DNA of 64,000 nt. Source: an uncultured Alphaproteobacteria bacterium (GTDB taxonomy: Bacteria; Pseudomonadota; Alphaproteobacteria; Parvibaculales; Parvibaculaceae). This document shows positions 40,194 to 57,403 of the stretch, piece by piece. The stretch is from positions 1 to 64,000 of the forward strand of contig CAISYL010000245.1 of NCBI GenBank assembly GCA_903889655.1, in the 5' to 3' direction. Position 1 is the stretch's first letter; every line of letters begins with the position of its first letter. The position numbers and the translations under genes were made by a program. The notes beneath the pieces were generated by a model. The model was not told the origin of the DNA. It worked only from the letters and a program-made list of their open reading frames with translations, and made no database searches.

Positions 40194-41738
40194 ATGTCCT
40201 ATTCCTCCCTCCGCGACTTTCTCGACCGGCTCGACCAGACAGGCGACCTCGCCCGGGTGAAGGCGCCCGTCTCGACCGTGCTCGAAATGACGGAGATCCA
40301 GACGCGGCTGCTCGCGGAAAAAGGCCCCGCCGTCCTCTTCGAACAGGCCCTGATGGCCGACGGCCGCCCCTCGCCCATGCCGGTCCTCGTCAACCTTTTC
40401 GGCACGGTCGAGCGCGTGGCGCTGGCGGTCACGATGCCATCTTCCGGAAAAGGGGAAGCCGTCGAGCGCCGCAGTGCGAAAGACCTCCGCGAAGTCGGCG
40501 AGCTTCTGGCCTTCCTCCGCCAGCCCGAACCGCCGGGCGGCTTCCGCGAGGCCTTCTCGATGCTGCCGCTGCTGAAGACCGTCATGGCCATGAAGCCGAA
40601 GACGGTCTCCTCGGCGCCTTGTCAGGAAGTCGTGCTGAAGGGCGACGACATCGACTTGAACGCCTTGCCGATCCAGACCTGCTGGCCGGGCGAGCCCGCG
40701 CCGCTCATCACCTGGCCTCTCGTCGTGACCAAGGGTCCCGGCACCAAACGCGAGGACGATTACAATCTCGGCATCTACCGCATGCAGGTACTGGCAAAGA
40801 ACAAGACCATCATGCGCTGGCTCGCGCATCGCGGCGGCGCGCAGCATCATCGCCGCTGGAAGGCAGAAAAGTCGGAGCCGCTGCCCGTCGCCGCCGTCAT
40901 CGGCGCCGATCCGGGCACCATCCTCGCCGCCGTCACGCCGGTGCCGGACACGCTCTCGGAATACCAGTTCGCCGGACTGCTCCGTGGACAGAAGGTCGAG
41001 CTCGTCGACTGCAAAACCGTACCGCTGAAGGTTCCCGCCGAAGCGGAGATCGTCATCGAGGGCCATGTTTCCCTCGACGATTATGCCGACGAAGGCCCCT
41101 ATGGCGACCACACCGGCTATTACAACTCGGTCGAGAAATTCCCGGTCTTCACCGTCAGCGCGATCACCATGCGGCAGAAGCCCATCTATCTCTCGACCTT
41201 CACCGGCCGCCCGCCGGACGAGCCCTCGGTGCTGGGCGAGGCGCTCAACGAGGTCTTCATTCCGCTTCTCCAGCAGCAATTCCCCGAGATCGTCGATTTC
41301 TGGCTGCCGCCCGAGGGCTGCTCCTACCGCATCGCCGTCATCTCGATGAAGAAAGCCTACCCCGGCCATGCCAAGCGCGTGATGATGGGCGCCTGGTCCT
41401 ATCTTCGCCAGTTCATGTACACGAAATGGCTGATCGTGGTGGACGACGACATCGACGCGCGCGACTGGAAGGATGTGATGTGGGCGATCTCGACCCGCAT
41501 GGACCCGGTGCGCGACGTGACGCTGATCGAAGGCACGCCCATCGACTATCTCGACTTCGCAAGCCCCGAGTCAGGCCTCGGCGGCAAGATCGGCCTCGAC
41601 GCCACCAACAAATGGCCGCCCGAAACGAAACGCGAATGGGGCACGCAGATCCGCATGGACCAGACCGTCATCGACGAAGTGACGCGCAAATGGTCATCAC
41701 TCGGCCTTCCGGGCGCCGGCAAGCCGATCTGGAAGTGA
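40194..41738 (+). CDS. ubiD: UbiD-family decarboxylase
   Basis: [74 protein letters not shown]. Confidence 0.92.
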
Positions 41739-41923
41739 CGTCGCGCGTGATACGCAATTCGCAATCTGCGTATAACGCGCGCCCCTCACCATAAGCCCAA
41801 CCCACGGCATATCTCTTGCTCCGCTTCGGCCGGAACGCGCGTCACACATGCCGTCGTTAATCTTTCCTAAAGCATGACGACGGACACTTGGCGCGGGACG
41901 ACAGCGATTCAGCGGGGACTTGC

Positions 41924-42604
41924 GTGGAACCCAGTCGAGTGTTGCGTGTGTTGTTTGTGCTGGGTTTTGCCGCTTCGCTGGCGATACCTGCGTCCGCGCG
42001 CGGCTTCGACGTGAATGTTTCCGCACCGGCGACCATGCCCATCGGCCCGCAGGTCGAAGCGCCTTACGGCTTCGTCGATTTCTGCACCCGCAATCCGGCG
42101 CCCTGCCGCCTGCATGCCACCGAAATCACCAACATCCGCCTCACGCCTGAGCATCGGGCGACGCTCGAGCGCGTCAATGCGGAAGTGAACCACCTGCCGC
42201 AAATCACCGACCTCGATAATTACGGCGTCGTCGAATACTGGTCCTACCCGAACAAGCGCGGCGGCGATTGCGAGGATCTGGCGCTCGAGAAGCAGCGCCG
42301 TCTCGTTGCGCTCGGCTTCCCCGAAGACGCGCTTCTCCTCGCCGTGGTGCGCCAGGCGAACGGCGAAGGCCACACGGTGCTGGTCGTCGAAACGGATCGC
42401 GGCGAATTCGTCCTCGACAATCTGAACCCCTCTATCCTCGCCTGGGCCGACGTCCCCTATACCTGGCGCAAGCGCCAGTCGCGCCTCGCCTCGGGCCTCT
42501 GGCAGAGCGTCGATCCGGACGCGACGAGAATCGCCGAAGCCTCGAAGCTCTCCAGCCAGCGCGATACGACCTCGGCCCCGCTTCGGTCCGGCACTCTGCG
42601 CTGA
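41924..42604 (+). CDS. Bacterial transglutaminase-like cysteine proteinase (BTLCP), copy 1, Sec signal
   Basis: GFVDFCTRNPAPC, YWSYPNKRGGDCEDLALEKQRRL, EGHTVLVVETDRGEFVLDNLNPSI (Cys/His/Asp set). Confidence 0.9.
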   Translation: MEPSRVLRVLFVLGFAASLAIPASARGFDVNVSAPATMPIGPQVEAPYGFVDFCTRNPAPCRLHATEITNIRLTPEHRATLERVNAEVNHLPQITDLDNYGVVEYWSYPNKRGGDCEDLALEKQRRLVALGFPEDALLLAVVRQANGEGHTVLVVETDRGEFVLDNLNPSILAWADVPYTWRKRQSRLASGLWQSVDPDATRIAEASKLSSQRDTTSAPLRSGTLR

Positions 42605-42830
42605 AAACGCCCCTCATTCGCCTGCCTGCGACGAAATGTCGAAGACATATGCTCCGTAGGCTGAATCCGCGGAACTTCGACTAAAAATTCCATGGTGAAA
42701 TGTCCCGTCGCTAAAATTTTAGGAAAATGCCGAATTTTAAGCACATTCCTCCCATGGTGAATTAACTCGTCGGTAAGTCCCGCAACCGATTTTGCGCCTC
42801 GCGTTGGATCGAGAGACCGGGAATTGGGCG

Positions 42831-43562
42831 ATGAAACCCTTGTGGCGGTGGTTGAGTGTCGTGAGCGAGGTGGGCCTTGCTCTGATGTTGACAGGATGTG
42901 CGGGCACGAACGGGACGGGCTTTCCGGATCTTCGGGGCAGCGTGCAGCTCGCATCCTACATGCCTGTCGGGCAACAGGTTGTGCCGCCCCACGGCTTCAT
43001 CGGCTTCTGCCTGCGCAGCGAGCCGGACTGTGCCGGCGGCACGGACACGCCGTCGAACCCCGCGCTGACGCCCGCTCGCTGGTCGGAACTCAACGACGTC
43101 AACGACTACGTCAATCGTCTTCCTGAAATCGAGGACAGCGATAATTACGGCCGCACGGAATACTGGACCTATCCCAACGAACGCGGCGGCGACTGCGAGG
43201 ATCTGGCGCTGCTGAAGCGCAAGCTGCTCATCGCCCGCGGCTGGCCTGCCGATGCCGTCCTTCTCGCCACGGCGCAGGAATGGAACGGCGAAGGCCATGC
43301 GCTGCTGGTCGTCGTGACGGACAAGGGCGACTTCGTGCTCGACAACAAGAACCCGGCGATCGTCTCATGGCGGGATGCGCCTTACACATGGAAGGCGCGC
43401 CAATCCCGCGCCCGGCCCTACGTCTGGGTCGATCTCGATCGCGACACGTTCAGAAACGCCGCGATGGAGACGCTTCCCCCGCTCGGCGCGACAGCCCCCT
43501 TCATTCTTGCCGCCCGCAGGATCTCCGGCCGGGCCGAACGAGACGGAGCCGCTCGCGGTTGA
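42831..43562 (+). CDS. BTLCP copy 2, predicted lipoprotein
   Basis: Lipobox LTGC in MKPLWRWLSVVSEVGLALMLTGCAG; GFIGFCLRSEPDC, YPNERGGDCEDLALLKRKLL, EGHALLVVVTDKGDFVLDNKNPAI. Confidence 0.9.
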   Translation: MKPLWRWLSVVSEVGLALMLTGCAGTNGTGFPDLRGSVQLASYMPVGQQVVPPHGFIGFCLRSEPDCAGGTDTPSNPALTPARWSELNDVNDYVNRLPEIEDSDNYGRTEYWTYPNERGGDCEDLALLKRKLLIARGWPADAVLLATAQEWNGEGHALLVVVTDKGDFVLDNKNPAIVSWRDAPYTWKARQSRARPYVWVDLDRDTFRNAAMETLPPLGATAPFILAARRISGRAERDGAARG

Positions 43563-43713
43563 AGACCGTCCGTAGACGATCTTTCCTCCGTTTCGGATGA
43601 ACGCCTCACGCGAACGCGGATGCATCCAATCCCGTCTCGATTGACCGCTCGATTTAAGACGCGGGTAAGGACGCTGGACGACGCTCGGAGACCTCACGAT
43701 CGAGGTCGCTTCG

Positions 43714-44481
43714 ATGACGTTCTCCGCCTGCCTGCGTGTTCTGCTTGTGGCGACGCTCCTGCCCGTCGTCGCGGCCTGCGCCCGCGATCTGCCGGGCGAC
43801 GATTGGTTGCACCCCGCGCCGCTCCTTTCCGCCTCGCCCGGCGGCGAACCCATGCCGGTCGCGAACGCCATGCCGACCGGCCAGCGCATCGTTCCGCCCA
43901 TCGGCTATATCGGCTACTGCCTTCGCCATGCGGAAGACTGCGGCGGCGGCACCGACGCGCCTGCCGACGTCGATCTTACGCCCGCCCGCTGGTTCACCCT
44001 CGTCGCCGTCAACGACGAGGTGAACCGTCTGCCGGAAATCACCGACATCGCCAATTATGAAAAGCCCGAATACTGGACGCTGCCCAATGCGCGCGGCGGT
44101 GACTGCGAGGATATGGCGCTGCTGAAACGCAAGCGCCTCATCGAGCGCGGCTGGCCCGCCGACGCGCTGTTGCTCGCGACCACGCTCGATACCGATGGCG
44201 CAGGCCACGCGGTGCTGCTGGTCGCCGCCCAGGGCGGCGAACTCGTCCTCGACAACAAGACGAGCGCGATCCTTCCCTGGCGGATGACGCCCTATCGATG
44301 GAAGGCGCGTCAATCGCGCGAGCGTCCCTATGCCTGGGTCGATCTCGATCCCTCGACCTTCCGCGCCGTCACCGAGGCGCATCTGCCGCCGCCGGGCGCG
44401 CCGCCGCCTTTCATCGTCGCCGCGCTGAAGCTGAAGGCGCGCAATGCGACGACGGGCACGCTCGCATCGGCGCCGCGCTGA
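43714..44481 (+). CDS. BTLCP copy 3, predicted lipoprotein
   Basis: Lipobox-like VAAC in MTFSACLRVLLVATLLPVVAACARD; GYIGYCLRHAEDC, LPNARGGDCEDMALLKRKRL, AGHAVLLVAAQGGELVLDNKTSAI. Confidence 0.9.
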   Translation: MTFSACLRVLLVATLLPVVAACARDLPGDDWLHPAPLLSASPGGEPMPVANAMPTGQRIVPPIGYIGYCLRHAEDCGGGTDAPADVDLTPARWFTLVAVNDEVNRLPEITDIANYEKPEYWTLPNARGGDCEDMALLKRKRLIERGWPADALLLATTLDTDGAGHAVLLVAAQGGELVLDNKTSAILPWRMTPYRWKARQSRERPYAWVDLDPSTFRAVTEAHLPPPGAPPPFIVAALKLKARNATTGTLASAPR

Positions 44482-44621: not shown

Positions 44622-44888
44622 ATGTCTGCCCGTGCCTATCTCCTCCCGGATTTCCCCGTCGATGCCGTGCGCAAGACGCCGCGTCGGACGGAAGCACCGA
44701 GAACAGGATTCACCACCATAGACGTGATCGAACTTCCCAACGGTTTCTGGGAAGTGCGCGGCGATCGCGGCCTTTTCGGCGGACGTTTCAGGTCCAGCGA
44801 ACAGGCGCTCCGCTTCGCCATCGAAGAGGGCCGGACCTACCGCGCATTCGTTCTGCAGATGAAATCCCGTCCGCTGACGGAACACTGA
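44622..44888 (+). CDS. Small hypothetical protein (88 aa)
   Basis: ORF MSARAYLLPDFPVDAVRKTPRRTEAPRTGFTTIDVIELPNGFWEVRGDRGLFGGRFRSSEQALRFAIEEGR; followed by a terminator. Confidence 0.65.
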   Translation: MSARAYLLPDFPVDAVRKTPRRTEAPRTGFTTIDVIELPNGFWEVRGDRGLFGGRFRSSEQALRFAIEEGRTYRAFVLQMKSRPLTEH

Positions 44889-49193: not shown

Positions 49194-50567
49194 ATGGCCG
49201 AGACAAAGCCTGCCCCTTCGCCATCCGGACAGACGGGTGTTCTCGACGCCGCCGCGATGCTGGTCGAGCGCGCGCTGAAGGCCGGCGCCGAAGCTGCGGA
49301 GGCGATCGTACTCGAAGGCCAGTCGCTCGGCGTCTCGTGGCGTCTCGGCAAGCTCGAGGATGTGGAGCGCTCCGAAGGCCGCGACGTGGGGCTCCGCGTC
49401 TTCATCGGCAAGCGCCAGGCCGTCGTCTCGACGACGGACCTCTCCGAGCGCTCGCTGAAGCCGCTCATTGAGCGTGTCGTCGCCATGGCCCGCGTCGCGC
49501 CGGAAGACCCCTACGCGACGCTCGCCGACCGCGCCTTGCTCGCTCGCGACTTCCCCGATCTCGACATCGACGATCCCGTCGCGCCGCCGACGGCCGAAGC
49601 GCTGGCCGACGCCTCCGCCGAAGCCGAGGAAGCGGCGCTCGCCGTCAAGGGCGTCACCAATTCGGGCGGCGCCGGCGCGCAATGGGGCCGTTCGGGCGTC
49701 GCCCTCGTCACCAGCGAAGGCTTCTCCGGCTCCTATGCCGGCACCTCCTTCTCGGTCTCCTGCTCGGTCCTCGCCGGCGAAGGCACCGGCATGGAGCGCG
49801 ACTACGATTTTTCCTCGACGCGCCATCTCGCCGATCTCGACCGCCCGGTCGATATCGGCCGTTCGGCGGGCGAACGCGCCGTGCGCCGCATCGGACCCCG
49901 CAAGGTCCGCTCGCAGGCCGTCCCCATTGTCTACGACCCGCGCGTCTCGGCGGGTCTCGTCGGCCATTTCGCCGGTGCCATTTCCGGTGCCTCCATCGCG
50001 CGCAAATCGAGTTTCCTCCAGCAGTCGCTCGGCAAGCCCGTCTTCGCGCCCGGCATCGACATCGTCGACGACCCGCATCGCAGGCGCGGCCTGCGCTCGA
50101 AGCCTTTCGACGGCGAAGGCGTCGCGAACCGCGCGATGAAATTGATCGACGACGGCATCCTGACGACCTGGCTTCTCGATACGGCCTCGGCCCACCAGCT
50201 CGGCCTTACCAGCACCGGCCACGCAGCGCGCGGCACCGGCGGCCCGCCCTCGCCGTCGACGACCAATCTCCATATGGCGGCAGGCGCGCTTTCGCCCGAC
50301 GAACTCATGGCCGACATTGCCGAGGGTCTCTACATCACCGAGCTGATCGGCATGGGCGTCAACGGCGTCACCGGCGATTACAGCCGCGGCGCCTCCGGTT
50401 TCTGGATCGAGAACGGCAAGCTCGCTTTTCCGGTGAGCGAGATCACCGTCGCCGGCAATCTGAAGGACATGTTCTTCCACATGGTCCCGGCGAACGATCT
50501 CGTCTTCCGCTACGCGACCAATGCACCCACCATCCGCGTCGAGGGCATGACCGTTGCCGGCACCTGA
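49194..50567 (+). CDS. pmbA: TldE/PmbA family metalloprotease subunit
   Basis: LDTASAHQLGLTSTGHAARGTGGPPSPSTTNLHM, YITELIGMGVNGVTGDYSRGASGFWIENG. Confidence 0.92.
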   Translation: MAETKPAPSPSGQTGVLDAAAMLVERALKAGAEAAEAIVLEGQSLGVSWRLGKLEDVERSEGRDVGLRVFIGKRQAVVSTTDLSERSLKPLIERVVAMARVAPEDPYATLADRALLARDFPDLDIDDPVAPPTAEALADASAEAEEAALAVKGVTNSGGAGAQWGRSGVALVTSEGFSGSYAGTSFSVSCSVLAGEGTGMERDYDFSSTRHLADLDRPVDIGRSAGERAVRRIGPRKVRSQAVPIVYDPRVSAGLVGHFAGAISGASIARKSSFLQQSLGKPVFAPGIDIVDDPHRRRGLRSKPFDGEGVANRAMKLIDDGILTTWLLDTASAHQLGLTSTGHAARGTGGPPSPSTTNLHMAAGALSPDELMADIAEGLYITELIGMGVNGVTGDYSRGASGFWIENGKLAFPVSEITVAGNLKDMFFHMVPANDLVFRYATNAPTIRVEGMTVAGT

Positions 50568-51369
50568 GGCGACATTGCCCACCCGCACCGAGGATCGCGA
50601 CCTGATGGTCGAGGCCGTGCGCGAAGCGGGTGCGCTGGCGCTCACCTTTTACCAGACCGAGCTGAAGAAGTGGCTGAAGCTCGGCGACAGCGTCGTCACA
50701 GAGGCCGACATCGCCGTCAACGACCTCCTCGAGAAACGCCTCGCTCTCACGCGGCCCGATTATGGCTGGCTCTCGGAGGAAACCGAGGACGACCCCGCCC
50801 GTCTCAAACGCTCCCGCGTCTGGGTCGTCGATCCGATTGACGGCACACGCGCCTTCGCCAAGGGCAAGCCGCATTTCGTCCTGTCGGTGGCGCTCGTCGA
50901 GGACGGGGCGCCGGTAATGGGTGTGCTCTTCAATCCGGCGACCGGCGAATTCTTCGAGGCGGCCCTCGGCCAGGGCGCGACTTTGAACGGCGCGCCTATC
51001 GCACCGAGCGACCGCACCGAAATCGAAGGCTGCCGCATGGCGGCGCACGGGCCGATGTTCAGGCACCCCGCCTGGCCGGAGCCCTGGCCGCCGATGGAAA
51101 TCATCGAGCGCAATTCGGTCGCCTATCGAATCGCACTGGTCGCCTGCGGACAGGCCGATGCGGCGCTCGCCCTCACGGCCAAGAACGACTGGGATCTCGC
51201 CGCCGCCGACCTCATCCTGCGCGAAGCCGGCGGCCGCTTCACGACGCATGACGGCAAGCCCTTCGTCTACAATCGCGAACTGCCGCGCCACCGCAGCCTG
51301 CTTGCCGCGGGTCCGCGGTTTTATGACGTGCTCTATCGGCGCGTCGGCCATCTGGCGCTACCATCCTGA
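50554..51369 (+). CDS. Inositol monophosphatase/3'(2'),5'-bisphosphate nucleotidase family
   Basis: DSVVTEADIAVND, WLSEETEDD, VWVVDPIDGTRAFAKG, WDLAAADLILREAGGRFT. Confidence 0.9.
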   Translation: MPAPEATLPTRTEDRDLMVEAVREAGALALTFYQTELKKWLKLGDSVVTEADIAVNDLLEKRLALTRPDYGWLSEETEDDPARLKRSRVWVVDPIDGTRAFAKGKPHFVLSVALVEDGAPVMGVLFNPATGEFFEAALGQGATLNGAPIAPSDRTEIEGCRMAAHGPMFRHPAWPEPWPPMEIIERNSVAYRIALVACGQADAALALTAKNDWDLAAADLILREAGGRFTTHDGKPFVYNRELPRHRSLLAAGPRFYDVLYRRVGHLALPS

Positions 51370-51413
51370 CGGCGCCGTGTTAGACTGAACCGATATGGCG
51401 CTTCGACGGGGTA

Positions 51414-51650
51414 GTGCGCGTGTCTCAACAACTTCTTCATCTCGTATTCGGCGGCGAACTCGAAAATCTCGAGCGGGCGGATTTCCGCGACACGTCCAAT
51501 CTGGACATCGTCGGCATCTTTCCGGACTACGCCAGCGCCTACAGGGCCTGGAAGGCGGCGTCGCAACGCACCGTCGATAACGCGCATATGCGCTATTTCA
51601 TCGTCCACCTGCATCGTCTGCTCGATCCGGAGACGGAGCACAGGGAATGA
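51414..51650 (+). CDS. DUF4170-like small protein
   Basis: LLHLVFGGELENLERADFRDTSNLDIVGIFPDYASAYRAWKAASQRTVDNAHMRYFIVHLHRLLDPE; GTG start. Confidence 0.82.
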   Translation: MRVSQQLLHLVFGGELENLERADFRDTSNLDIVGIFPDYASAYRAWKAASQRTVDNAHMRYFIVHLHRLLDPETEHRE

Positions 51651-52195
51651 CCGACGACGGGATCAGGTCGCGGAGACGGCATCTTCCGCCGGAACCGGCG
51701 GCCCCTCAGCAGCCCGGCACCGCCCTGTCGATCCTGCTTCTCTTCGGCTTTCTCGGCTTCGTCTTCGCTTTTGCTTCGATGGCCGGCTTCGTCACCGCCC
51801 ACAATGTCGAGGGCTGGTACACGACGATCGCAAAGCCGCCCCTGACACCGGCGAACTGGGTTTTCCCGGTCGTCTGGAATTTCCTCTATTTCCTGATGGG
51901 CCTTTCGGGCTGGCTCGTCTGGCGAAAGGCGGGCGGCTTTGCCGCCGCCGCAGCGCCCCTGATCCTCTTCGCCTTGCAGATCACGCTCAACTTCACCTGG
52001 AGCGTCATCTTTTTCGGCCTGCACAGCACCGGTGGCGCGGCCATCGAGATTTTCGTTCTGATCGCGGCCCTTGCCCTCACCATCCTGTTCTTCTGGCGCG
52101 TCACGCCGCTCGCCGCGATTCTGCTGCTGCCCTACCTTGCATGGACGCTCTTCGCGGCCTATCTGACCATTGCGATCTGGCTGATAAACGCCTGA
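51647..52195 (+). CDS. tspO: TspO/MBR family tryptophan-rich sensory protein
   Basis: WYTTIAKPPLTPANWVFPVVWNFLYFLMGLSGWLVWR...FTWSVIFFGLHSTGGA. Confidence 0.92.
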   Translation: MTDDGIRSRRRHLPPEPAAPQQPGTALSILLLFGFLGFVFAFASMAGFVTAHNVEGWYTTIAKPPLTPANWVFPVVWNFLYFLMGLSGWLVWRKAGGFAAAAAPLILFALQITLNFTWSVIFFGLHSTGGAAIEIFVLIAALALTILFFWRVTPLAAILLLPYLAWTLFAAYLTIAIWLINA

Positions 52196-52341
52196 AACCA
52201 GCGTCGAAGCCGAACCGAAAAACCTAGCCGGGTCGGGCATTTACCTTATATAAGGCGGCTCCATCGCGGTGGCGGCTCCGCCCCCGCCATGTTATGGTTC
52301 GGGCAGGAACGCCGGCCCGAGGCCGGCTTCGCCAATTTCCC

Positions 52342-54261
52342 ATGCCCGCCAGAAATCATGTGACGAGGCCGTATTTGAGCGACACGACCGCACCGGGCCC
52401 GCAAGCCGACACGCAAAAGACCGTACGTCGGAAGCCGGTCTCGTCGTCCCCTGACGACCTGAAGACTTTTGCCGTCCTGAAACGAACGGCCACCGACTAT
52501 CTGTTGCCGAACTGGCGCCTGGTCGCCGCGTCCCTTATCGGCAGCGTCGTCGTCGCCGGCACGACCGGCATTCTGCCCTGGCTGATCCAGCAGGTCTTCG
52601 ACGAAGTCCTCGACCGCAAGGACATCACGAAGCTCATCCTGATCGCGGTCGGCACCATCGGCGTCTCCGCCTTCAAGGGCGCCGCCGCCTATACGACCAA
52701 CATCACCAAGAACGCCATCGGCCAGCGGATCATCTCGGCGATCCAGTCCCGCATGTTCACCCGCATCATGCGCGCCGACCTCGCCTGGATTTCCCGGACG
52801 CATTCGGGCCGGTTCATTTCGAGCTTCATGAACGATGCCGGCCGTGTGCGCGACACGGTGACCATGTCCATCATCGATTTCACACAGAACTCTCTTACAG
52901 TCGTCGCGCTCATGGGCAGCATGTTCTTCATGAACTGGAAGCTCGCGCTGCTCGGCTGTTCGGTGATCCCCTTCGGCATGATCTACATGCGCAAACTCGG
53001 CAAGAAAACGCGCAAAGCATCGCGGCAGGGTCTTGAAGGAACAGGCGATCTTTCGGCCCATATCTCGGAAGCGCTCGGCGGCATTCGCGTGGTCAAGGCC
53101 TACAATCAGGAAGACCGCGAAATCACGAGAGTGAGCGACAAGGTGCAGGAAGTGCTTCGGCATTCCATGCGCGGCTTCCGCGCCAAGGCGAAGGCCAGCC
53201 CGCTGACGGAATCGCTTTCCGGCGTCGGCATTGCCGGCGTCATCTATTTCGGCGGCATGGCCGTCATCGACGCACATCTGACCAAGGGCGAGTTGATGGC
53301 TTTCATCTCCGCCATGATGCTTGCCTATCAGCCGCTGAAATCCGTCGCGAACACGCAGACGATCATGCAGGAAGGCGTCGCGGCGGCGGCCCGCGTTTTC
53401 CCCATCCTCGATGTCGAACCGGAAATCGTCAGCCGTCCCGACGCGAAGCCGATCGACCTGAAGCACGGCGCGATCCGTTTCGAAGACGTCAACTTCGCCT
53501 ATGCCGACGGCACGCATGCGCTGAAGGGTATCAGCATCGAAGTGCCGAGAGGGCATACCGTCGCCCTTGTCGGCCCGTCCGGCGGCGGCAAGAGCACGAC
53601 GCTCAACATGGTTCCGCGCTTCTACGACCCCTCGTCGGGCCGTGTCGTGATCGACGGCCAGGACATTCGCGACGTAACGCTTTCCTCGCTCCGCCAGTCG
53701 ATCTCGCTCGTGACGCAGGAGCCTTTTCTCTTCGACGACACCGTGCGCGCGAATATCGCCTACGGACGTCCCGACGCCAGCGACGCCGAGATCGAGGAAG
53801 CCGCGCGCAACGCGGCCGCCCATGACTTCATCACTGCGCTGCCCAGGGGCTACGAAACGCGCGTCGGCGAAGCCGGCATGAAGCTCTCCGGCGGTCAGCG
53901 GCAGCGCATCGCGATCGCCCGGGCCATGCTGAAGAACGCGCCAATCCTGCTTCTCGACGAAGCAACCTCCGCGCTCGACACCGCGTCCGAGCTTCAGGTG
54001 CAGACCGCGCTCTCCGCGCTGATGAAAGGCCGCACGACGCTCGTCATCGCGCATCGCCTTTCGACCATCAAGCACGCAAACAACATCTATGTGATCGACG
54101 ACGGCCGCGTTCTCGAATCCGGCGACCATGCCTCGCTGGTCGCTCAGGGCGGGCTCTACGCGGAACTGTCGCGGTCGCAATTCGAGCGGGACGTTTCCGA
54201 CGAGGATAATGCCGCCCCCGAAGCGGCAACCGCCGTCAAGGCTGCCGTGGCGCGAGCGTGA
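52342..54261 (+). CDS. msbA: MsbA-like ABC transporter (permease-ATPase fusion)
   Basis: Six-TM half followed by VALVGPSGGGKSTTLNMVPRFYDPSSG, MKLSGGQRQRIAIARAMLKNAPILLLDEATSALD; lipid A neighbourhood. Confidence 0.9.
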   Translation: MPARNHVTRPYLSDTTAPGPQADTQKTVRRKPVSSSPDDLKTFAVLKRTATDYLLPNWRLVAASLIGSVVVAGTTGILPWLIQQVFDEVLDRKDITKLILIAVGTIGVSAFKGAAAYTTNITKNAIGQRIISAIQSRMFTRIMRADLAWISRTHSGRFISSFMNDAGRVRDTVTMSIIDFTQNSLTVVALMGSMFFMNWKLALLGCSVIPFGMIYMRKLGKKTRKASRQGLEGTGDLSAHISEALGGIRVVKAYNQEDREITRVSDKVQEVLRHSMRGFRAKAKASPLTESLSGVGIAGVIYFGGMAVIDAHLTKGELMAFISAMMLAYQPLKSVANTQTIMQEGVAAAARVFPILDVEPEIVSRPDAKPIDLKHGAIRFEDVNFAYADGTHALKGISIEVPRGHTVALVGPSGGGKSTTLNMVPRFYDPSSGRVVIDGQDIRDVTLSSLRQSISLVTQEPFLFDDTVRANIAYGRPDASDAEIEEAARNAAAHDFITALPRGYETRVGEAGMKLSGGQRQRIAIARAMLKNAPILLLDEATSALDTASELQVQTALSALMKGRTTLVIAHRLSTIKHANNIYVIDDGRVLESGDHASLVAQGGLYAELSRSQFERDVSDEDNAAPEAATAVKAAVARA

Positions 54262-54271
54262 GATCAGGTCG

Positions 54272-55018
54272 ATGTCGCTGGGCAAGCAGATCGTAAAGAG
54301 CGAATGGACGCAAACGGGGGTCGCCTTTCTGGCCGCCCTGCTAATCAAGCTCGTCCGCCGCACCAGCCGCTTCGAAGTGCGCCGCGGCGACATTGCGGCC
54401 CGCTTCTGGACGGGCGACGAACCTTTCATCGGCGCGACCTGGCACGGGCAGAACCTCATCCTGCCGACCTTCTGGCACAACTGGCGCGAGATGCGCATTC
54501 TCGTCTCGCGACATGGCGACGGCGAGATCGTCTCGCAGATCATGCACTTCCTCGGCGTCGGTACGATCCGCGGCTCAGGCGTTCCGAAAGGCGAGGAGCG
54601 GCGCGAGAAGCATCGCGGCAAGGGCGGCGCGGGCGCGCTACGCGCCATGGTGCGGGCGCTCGGCGAGAATATCTCGGTCGGCATGACGGCCGATCTTCCG
54701 CCCGGCCCCGCCCGCAAGGCCGGCGACGGTATCGTCATGCTGGCGCGGCTCTCGGGCTGCCCGATCGTCCCCGTGGCCGCGACGACGCGGGCGCGTGTGC
54801 AACTCAACAATTGGGACAAGTTCACGATCAACCTGCCTTTCTCGAAAGGTGCACTGGTCTGGGGCGAACCGATCTATGTCCCGCGCGATGCCGATCCGGA
54901 AACGCTGGAAGACGCGCGGCGTCGCGTCGAGGATGGCCTCAACGCCGTGAGCGAGGAGGCGGAGCGCATCGTCGGCCGCAGACCGAAGACGCAAGGCGCC
55001 GGGGCGGCGCTCCTTTGA
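54272..55018 (+). CDS. DUF374 lysophospholipid acyltransferase-like protein
   Basis: FIGATWHGQNLILP...LVSRHGDGEIVSQIMHFLGVGTIRGS...MTADLPPGPARKAGDGIVMLARLSGCPIVPVA. Confidence 0.88.
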   Translation: MSLGKQIVKSEWTQTGVAFLAALLIKLVRRTSRFEVRRGDIAARFWTGDEPFIGATWHGQNLILPTFWHNWREMRILVSRHGDGEIVSQIMHFLGVGTIRGSGVPKGEERREKHRGKGGAGALRAMVRALGENISVGMTADLPPGPARKAGDGIVMLARLSGCPIVPVAATTRARVQLNNWDKFTINLPFSKGALVWGEPIYVPRDADPETLEDARRRVEDGLNAVSEEAERIVGRRPKTQGAGAALL

Positions 55019-55035
55019 CCGGCCTGACGACGCAC

Positions 55036-56355
55036 ATGTCCGCTACGCCGCGGCGGGCGGGCTTCGGCCTCACCGCCTATCGGCTTGCGACGCGCGCCCT
55101 CGGCCCCGCCCTGCCGCTCCTGCTGGCGCTGCGCATGCGGCGCGGCAAGGAAGACGAGCTGCGCCTTGCCGAGCGCTGCGGCATCCCCTCGCTCGACCGT
55201 CCGCATGGGAAACTCGTCTGGATTCACGCCGCGAGCGTCGGCGAGTCGCTCTCTGTACTGACATTGATCGATCGCCTGATCGCCGACGGCCTTCACATTC
55301 TCGTCACCACAGGCACCGTCACCTCCGCGCATCTGATGGAGGAACGCTTGCCCGAAGGCGCGATCCATCAGTTCATCGCGCTCGACCATCCGGACTACAC
55401 CGCGCGCTTTCTCGATTACTGGAAACCCGACCTCGCCGTCTGGGTCGAATCCGAATTCTGGCCGAACCTGATCGTCGCGGCGCATGAGCGCGGCATCCCG
55501 CTCGCCCTCGTCAATGCGCGCATCACGGAGCGCTCCTTCCGCGGCTGGCAGCGCTTCCCGCGTTTCATCGCCAATCTGCTCGGTCGCTTTTCGCTGCTGC
55601 TCGCGCAGGACGAGGCGAGTGCCCGCCGCTTGCGGATGCTCGGCGCGCCGGTGGTCGCCACGCCCGGCAACCTGAAACACGATGCGGCGCCTCTCACCGC
55701 CGACGAGACGAACCTTGCGCCTTTGCGGGCGAGCATCGGTGCAAGGCCGGTCTGGCTCGCCACAAACACGCATGAGGGCGAGGAGACGGTCGCGGCCGAC
55801 GTCCATCTCCGCCTGGCCCCCGCGCGGCCGGACCTGCTGACGTTGATCGTGCCGCGCCATCCGGCACGTGGAACCGCCATTGCCGTCGAACTGGAAAAGC
55901 GCGGCCTCAAGGTTGCGCGCCGTTCGCTCGGCGACACAATCACGCCATCGACGCAGATCTATCTCGCCGACACGCTGGGCGAACTGGGCCTTTTCTATCG
56001 CCTCGCGGACATCGTCTTTATCGGCGGTACGCTGACGGAAACCGGTGGGCACAATCCCTTCGAGCCGGCTCGGCTTCACTGTGCGCTGATCGCGGGACCG
56101 AGCGATTTCAATTTCGCCGAAGCCTATGCGGCTTTTGCTGGCGTCGACGCTCTCATCCGCATCGGGAATGCCGCGACGCTCGCCGACGCCGTCGCCCGTC
56201 TTCTGACCGACGAGACCGAGCGCAAGCGCCGCGCCGATGCCGCCGCCGCACTTGCCGGCACATCGAGCGGCGCCACCGACCGCACCGCCGAGGCGCTGCT
56301 CTCGCTTCTCGACGGCGTGCGCGCCCATCCGGCGACGGGGGAACGCCATGCGTGA
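55036..56355 (+). CDS. waaA: 3-deoxy-D-manno-octulosonic acid transferase
   Basis: ERCGIPSLDRPHGKLVWIHAASVGESLSVLTLIDRL, ESEFWPNLI, IVPRHPARG, FIGGTLTETGGHNPFEPA. Confidence 0.95.
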   Translation: MSATPRRAGFGLTAYRLATRALGPALPLLLALRMRRGKEDELRLAERCGIPSLDRPHGKLVWIHAASVGESLSVLTLIDRLIADGLHILVTTGTVTSAHLMEERLPEGAIHQFIALDHPDYTARFLDYWKPDLAVWVESEFWPNLIVAAHERGIPLALVNARITERSFRGWQRFPRFIANLLGRFSLLLAQDEASARRLRMLGAPVVATPGNLKHDAAPLTADETNLAPLRASIGARPVWLATNTHEGEETVAADVHLRLAPARPDLLTLIVPRHPARGTAIAVELEKRGLKVARRSLGDTITPSTQIYLADTLGELGLFYRLADIVFIGGTLTETGGHNPFEPARLHCALIAGPSDFNFAEAYAAFAGVDALIRIGNAATLADAVARLLTDETERKRRADAAAALAGTSSGATDRTAEALLSLLDGVRAHPATGERHA

Positions 56356-57403
56356 ACCGCGCTTCTGGCGGGCACCCCGCGCCGGGGAGGTCAGCATCCT
56401 GCCGCGTCTCCTGTCGCCCGCGGCCTTCCTCTATGGCGTCGCAGGCCGGCTGCGCCATCGCTTTGCAAAGCCCGAACAGGCCGCCGTGCCGATCATCTGC
56501 ATCGGCAACATCACCGTTGGCGGCACGGGCAAGACACCGCTCGCGCTGACGCTCGCCGAATGGCTGATCAGGCAGGGCGAGGCGGTTCATTTCCTGACAC
56601 GCGGCTATGGCGGCACGGAAGAAGGCCCGTTGCGCGTCGATCCCGCCAGACACACCGCCGAGGAAGTCGGCGACGAGCCGCTGCTTCTCGCCGCCGTTGC
56701 GCCGACATGGGTTTCAGCCGACCGGGCCGAAGGCGCCGCCGCTGCCGTGCGCGACGGCGCGAAGCTCATCCTGATGGATGACGGACTGCAGAACCCGGCG
56801 CTCATAAAGGATTTCTCGATCCTCGTCGCCGATGCCCAGACCGGTCTTGGCAATGGCAGGCTCATCCCCGCCGGGCCTTTGCGCGAGCCGATGGACAGGG
56901 GCCTTTCGCGCGTCGGCGCCGTCGTCATCATCGGCCGCGGTCACGCGGCGGACAGGATCGCCGCCCGGGCGCGGGCCCGTGCGATCCCGGTCTTCCGCGC
57001 CATCCTTCGCGCGGCCCCCGCGCCGGACCTCGACGGGCTGCCTGTGCTTGCCTTCGCCGGCATCGGGCGGCCCGAGAAATTCTACGCGACGCTGCGCGAA
57101 CTCCATGCGGACATCGTCGGCACGGCGAGCTTCGCCGATCATCACATCTTCGGCGAACGCGAAGCACTCGACCTCCTCCTTCGCGCTCGCGAACTCAATG
57201 CGGCCCTCGTCACCACCGAAAAGGATCTGGCCCGGCTCCGCGCCGCGCCAGCGGGAACGGCGCGGGCGCGGCTTCGGGACACGGCGAAAACCGTGACCGT
57301 CCATGCACTGATCGACGATTTCGCCGCCCTCGGAACACTGCTGCGCGACCAGATCAGGCTCGCCCGCAGCCGGGCCGCCAAGCGCGCCAGCCAGCCCGAT
57401 TGA
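56348..57403 (+). CDS. lpxK: Tetraacyldisaccharide 4'-kinase
   Basis: IICIGNITVGGTGKTPLALTLAEWL, LTRGYGG, MDDGLQNPALIKD, FADHHIF. Confidence 0.95.
   Translation: MREPRFWRAPRAGEVSILPRLLSPAAFLYGVAGRLRHRFAKPEQAAVPIICIGNITVGGTGKTPLALTLAEWLIRQGEAVHFLTRGYGGTEEGPLRVDPARHTAEEVGDEPLLLAAVAPTWVSADRAEGAAAAVRDGAKLILMDDGLQNPALIKDFSILVADAQTGLGNGRLIPAGPLREPMDRGLSRVGAVVIIGRGHAADRIAARARARAIPVFRAILRAAPAPDLDGLPVLAFAGIGRPEKFYATLRELHADIVGTASFADHHIFGEREALDLLLRARELNAALVTTEKDLARLRAAPAGTARARLRDTAKTVTVHALIDDFAALGTLLRDQIRLARSRAAKRASQPD

Follow-up and report, generated by a model that had tools for sequence, protein, structure and literature searches.

The window analysed here, a stretch of 64,000 nucleotides of DNA from an uncultured alphaproteobacterium, carries three consecutive + strand genes at positions 41924 to 44481, all of them intact and full-length and each coding for an exported protein. 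The genes, the sites that precede them and the conserved neighbour that marks the locus are the following.

40194 to 41738, + strand: ubiD, conserved upstream neighbour marking the locus (context, outside the system)
41857 to 41871, + strand: CtrA-box-like site TTAATCTTTCCTAAA, one mismatch, 67 nt upstream of copy 1
41924 to 42604, + strand: BTLCP copy 1, GTG start, Sec signal without a lipobox (..IPASA/RG..), putative triad C116, H150, D165
42692 to 42714, + strand: distal copy of the promoter element ATGGTGAA-N8-TCGSTAA, before copy 2
42754 to 42776, + strand: proximal copy of the same element, before copy 2 and conserved upstream of the G006 and G020 orthologs
42762 to 42776, + strand: CtrA-box-like site TTAACTCGTCGGTAA, one mismatch, 69 nt upstream of copy 2
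42831 to 43562, + strand: BTLCP copy 2, likely start ATG 42831, LTGC lipobox, putative triad C135, H169, D184 (P0002 numbering)
43654 to 43668, + strand: CtrA-box-like site TTAAGACGCGGGTAA, one mismatch, 60 nt upstream of copy 3
43714 to 44481, + strand: BTLCP copy 3, VAAC lipobox, putative triad C131, H165, D180

The three open reading frames lie on one strand and in the places given to them by the first-pass annotation, but the core motif that it ascribed to all three needs one correction, since its YPN element fails in copy 3 (TLPNARGGDCED). Copies 2 and 3 are the most alike, with 60% identity, compared with 47% for copies 1 and 2 and 45% for copies 1 and 3. Neighbours of the array include ubiD, YceI, cytochrome b561 and a macro domain gene, and the flanking genes follow the order found in two related genomes, G006 and G020, mostly with 75-95% identity. 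An assembly or contamination artefact is thus unlikely: with 45-60% identity the copies have diverged too far, and their flanks keep synteny with both genomes. Downstream lie a small, unassigned ORF of 88 residues (44622-44888) that begins ELPNGFWEVRGDRGLFGGRF and, some 6-12 kb from the array (within 50554-57403), an inositol monophosphatase-like gene and a gene for a Kdo transferase of the lipid A core; an ORF at 56237-57403 comes next after the Kdo transferase region.

The assignment of these genes to the BTLCP family, made at first from the letters of the sequence, is borne out by PF06035 (Peptidase_C93/BTLCP), which matches across the whole domain with E values between 1e-49 and 1e-54 (9.8e-54, 1.4e-52 and 1.1e-49 for copies 1, 2 and 3) and with scores of 168.8-181.9 bits against a curated cut-off of 27 bits. 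The proposed Cys-His-Asp catalytic set is likewise intact throughout, with identical spacing in the three copies (34 residues from Cys to His and 15 from His to Asp). In a family alignment of 78 sequences the triad and both cysteines of the C-x6-C pair are invariant, and each copy keeps all 20 of the invariant columns. The C-x6-C pair, noted earlier as a shared N-terminal feature, is therefore present in all three copies as described, but it is a trait of the subfamily, found throughout the 78 sequences, and can be ruled out as a signature of the array. A structure model of copy 2, built from the same alignment, has a pLDDT of 89, and its six best matches in the PDB are all LapG structures, with E values down to 8e-8. 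The array products are exported proteins with the predicted papain/transglutaminase fold, and we infer that they act as cysteine proteases.

The copies differ in their predicted placement. As first proposed, copy 1 has an ordinary Sec signal and copies 2 and 3 have the lipobox motifs LTGC and VAAC, from which copy 1 is predicted to be free in the periplasm and copies 2 and 3 to be lipid-anchored in the envelope. A lipobox, called by motif (a regular expression) and not by a trained predictor, is found in 44 of 47 members from the window's bacterial family, one of these (L012) having been added by eye, whereas 95 of 106 high-scoring members from outside that family do not have one. These counts argue that the lipoprotein is the ancestral form in the window's family and that copy 1 is the copy that has lost its lipobox. 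The same split is seen in another genome of the genus, G019, where a tandem pair (L034, 6775-8642) comprises one copy with a lipobox and one without. Neither ubiD nor tldD, the neighbours of the array locus, was found around this pair, which is a second, independent tandem arrangement; the genus showed no others.

How did three copies come to lie at this locus? The window genome has a fourth BTLCP, a lipoprotein encoded on contig C117 (L001), and across the genus nearly all genomes have this type as their best match or their only one; most have a single BTLCP and no copy at the array locus. This core protein resembles copy 2 in its lipobox, its domain layout and its sequence (65% identity), but its gene is at another locus and has no CtrA-box-like site within 200 nt upstream. 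The array itself lies in a block, ribF-mt-hdeD-ech-DUF1993-ubiD ... mapeg-tldD, that is largely conserved in four other genomes (G003, G004, G006 and G020), although not every gene was found in each and ubiD had no match in G004. Each of the four has one BTLCP gene at the array's place; three are present only in the window genome. In a tree of 84 members the three copies group with these locus copies, next to the core gene of the genus, and the nearest neighbours of copy 2 are the orthologs from G006 and G020; long branches lead to copies 1 and 3, whose order this tree does not settle. A focused tree agrees on copies 2 and 3, and has copy 1 unplaced on a long branch.

The trees, together with the shared position, thus imply that an ancestor shared by some members of the genus acquired one copy at this locus. 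Copy 2 is orthologous and syntenic to the single copies of G006 and G020; copies 1 and 3 are fast-evolving extras. The grouping of copy 2 with the single copies of other species argues against one recent triplication, as does the mild rejection of the three copies as an exclusive clade (p-AU 0.028), a test that the long branches weaken. Duplication followed by differential localisation, as originally suggested, therefore stands in so far as there has been tandem duplication and a split in anchoring; it was not, however, a simple recent burst, and the array began as a single gene at a locus that is conserved. Either it formed before its lineage separated from G006/G020, in which case copies were lost in those genomes, or it formed later and its copies evolved at very unequal rates. 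On this evidence the array is best described as a lineage-specific tandem expansion of a known alphaproteobacterial family.

When the class was sampled evenly, 91 of the 289 genomes had a BTLCP. Unlinked multiple copies are common among BTLCP-bearing genomes, of which there are roughly 160, but tandem pairs occur in about five of them and a triple only in the window genome, so that three-copy arrays are not the norm. One tandem pair, from another family (L163 in G276), lies about 8 kb from a Poly_export gene.

Each of the three genes is preceded by a CtrA-box-like site. The motif TTAA-N7-TTAA was chosen because hvyA of Caulobacter crescentus and the Sinorhizobium genes SMc00998 and NGR_c12490, which also encode BTLCPs, are reported CtrA targets (PMC4241560). 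With one mismatch allowed, there are four sites in the 64 kb, compared with 1.54 expected, and three of the four lie 60-69 nt before the array starts. In shuffled upstream regions the probability of a site is 0.007, 0.07 and 0.005 for the three copies, or about 2e-6 jointly. Over the whole genome, however, exact boxes number 9 against 6 for a reversed control pattern, so the CtrA motif by itself is weak evidence; some of the exact boxes adjoin ORFs that, read by eye, are ftsE-like and rsmH-like. Conservation of the box across orthologs was considered and rejected, the full site not being found upstream of three of the four single-copy orthologs (G003, G006 and G020). A single ancestral promoter seems to have given copies 2 and 3 their boxes. 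Given this apparent relatedness and those three orthologs, CtrA control of the array genes is put forward as a candidate only. The element ATGGTGAA-N8-TCGSTAA has its two exact occurrences before copy 2 and none elsewhere in the genome, with a near-match before the G004 ortholog.

What might the array products do? To our knowledge the only BTLCPs with a worked-out role are HvyA and, in other lineages, LapG, and we know of no direct substrate of HvyA. HvyA (CCNA_00166), a periplasmic BTLCP of C. crescentus, prevents capsulation in G1 and requires its Cys, His and Asp to do so; CtrA drives its expression and MucR represses it (PMC4241560). SMc00998 and NGR_c12490 can partly replace it whereas some other rhizobial BTLCPs cannot, and dependence on LapD is not reported for it (PMC4241560). 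A wider link between BTLCPs and polysaccharide export is suggested by gene location. Among 42 genomes of the class that have both families, counted by hand from tables, a BTLCP gene lies within 15 kb of a Wza-type Poly_export gene in 9 (0.98 expected), and in 7 of 27 bacterial families (0.67 expected); most of the co-located genes belong to a weakly scoring subgroup. In G028, from the window's own family, a BTLCP gene (L162) has genes for GDP-mannose/fucose and glycosyltransferases on one side and a divergent wza on the other, with a metallophosphatase gene nearby, so that this fucose-containing polysaccharide locus resembles the hvyA locus of Caulobacter, metallophosphatase included.

Capsule or export genes were not found next to the array, the three Poly_export genes of the window genome being on other contigs. 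The reading that its products act as HvyA does, in control of the cell surface or capsule, rather than in the release of an adhesin as LapG does, is thus an argument by family and precedent, and we give it about an even chance. If it is right, the BTLCP copies would be made under cell-cycle control, with CtrA a candidate regulator, and would process an envelope protein so as to alter the cell surface, whether through capsule or other export, with no control by LapD. The split between soluble and anchored forms could then bring one activity to different substrates or sites. A more far-reaching proposal, which we regard as doubtful, is that tandem duplication of BTLCP genes repeatedly yields proteases with the same catalytic core, different placement and cell-cycle promoters (CtrA-type) of their own, giving a graded or place-specific module for surface remodelling that works without a c-di-GMP receptor.

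The main rival to the HvyA-like reading is a general role in envelope protein processing, with lipoproteins, peptidoglycan enzymes or outer-membrane proteins among the possible substrates and with no relation to polysaccharide; the BTLCP found almost throughout Rhizobiales would have this as its conserved role. A BTLCP is present in 38 of 41 genomes of one order (apparently Rhizobiales) sampled around the genome of L077, and a role tied to one type of capsule is therefore unlikely for all of them. Targets beyond polysaccharides are also expected in the Discussion of PMC4241560. The co-location of BTLCP and export genes above expectation points the other way, though mostly in other subgroups, and we consider general processing possible but rather unlikely. 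Alternatively, the copies may be redundant duplicates that have simply drifted and do not divide the work between them; dosage or recent chance would then account for their retention, and copy 1 would be a degrading copy. The long branches of copies 1 and 3 would fit such drift, as would the single BTLCP and empty array locus of most of the genus, but none of the three copies has lost its open frame, signal sequence, triad or any of the 20 invariant columns, each has its own promoter-like region, and the split between soluble and anchored forms arose separately in G019. Drift of this kind is accordingly judged unlikely.

Returning to the HvyA-like reading, we conclude that the array is a real expansion of a known family with differential anchoring, and that its link to cell-cycle control of the surface is testable but unproven. 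At least one large order of Alphaproteobacteria has BTLCPs almost throughout, but few of their roles have been worked out. The genus offers a natural series, from one core copy, through one locus copy in sister species, to three diverged copies with different anchoring. Such a series makes a tractable system for the study of BTLCP substrates, of whether localisation determines the substrate and of whether the cell-cycle control by CtrA reported for HvyA holds throughout the class.

Comparison with LapG shows both the kinship and its limits. The LapG proteins of Pseudomonas and Legionella (PDB 4fgo, 4u65) share with the array the Pfam family, the fold, the triad and the D-C-E-D motif around the catalytic Cys. 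They differ in that the array has lipid-anchored members, where LapG is soluble, and an extra C-x6-C pair, and its three copies score only 30.1, 15.4 and 15.6 bits with the LapG equivalog model NF045674, far below the cut-off of 320. A LapD or LapA partner, not seen at first around the array, was not found in genome-wide searches either: the LapD sensor domain PF16448 (LapD_MoxY_N) has no match in the window genome, but gave none in the control genomes, and the LapA retention module NF033682 has none in the window genome, in a search confined to the LapA type of adhesin as distinct from types such as CdrA. Despite the shared family and fold, it is thus improbable that the array products are LapG-like proteases of the periplasm, releasing one or more secreted adhesins by N-terminal cleavage under a c-di-GMP receptor of an unrecognised type.

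Independence from LapD, which the first-pass annotation raised as a possibility, fits these results, but the functional reading in that annotation left out HvyA, which is probably the closest studied alphaproteobacterial relative of the array and a better functional precedent than LapG (PMC4241560). HvyA, SMc00998 and NGR_c12490 share with the array copies the BTLCP domain, a signal sequence and the triad spacing of 34 and 15 residues. Their promoters are bound by CtrA (PMC4241560), whereas the one-mismatch sites of the array are predicted only. The Trp-to-Cys spacing is 14 in HvyA (W178 and C192, in the numbering of PMC4241560) and 13-14 in the weakly scoring subgroup, compared with 9-11 in the window's subgroup, so the HvyA residue numbers alone suggest that it belongs to a different subgroup from the array. 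Finally, Caulobacter HvyA is encoded by a single gene inside a capsule export locus, whereas the array comprises three copies, two of them putative lipoproteins, at the ubiD-tldD locus.
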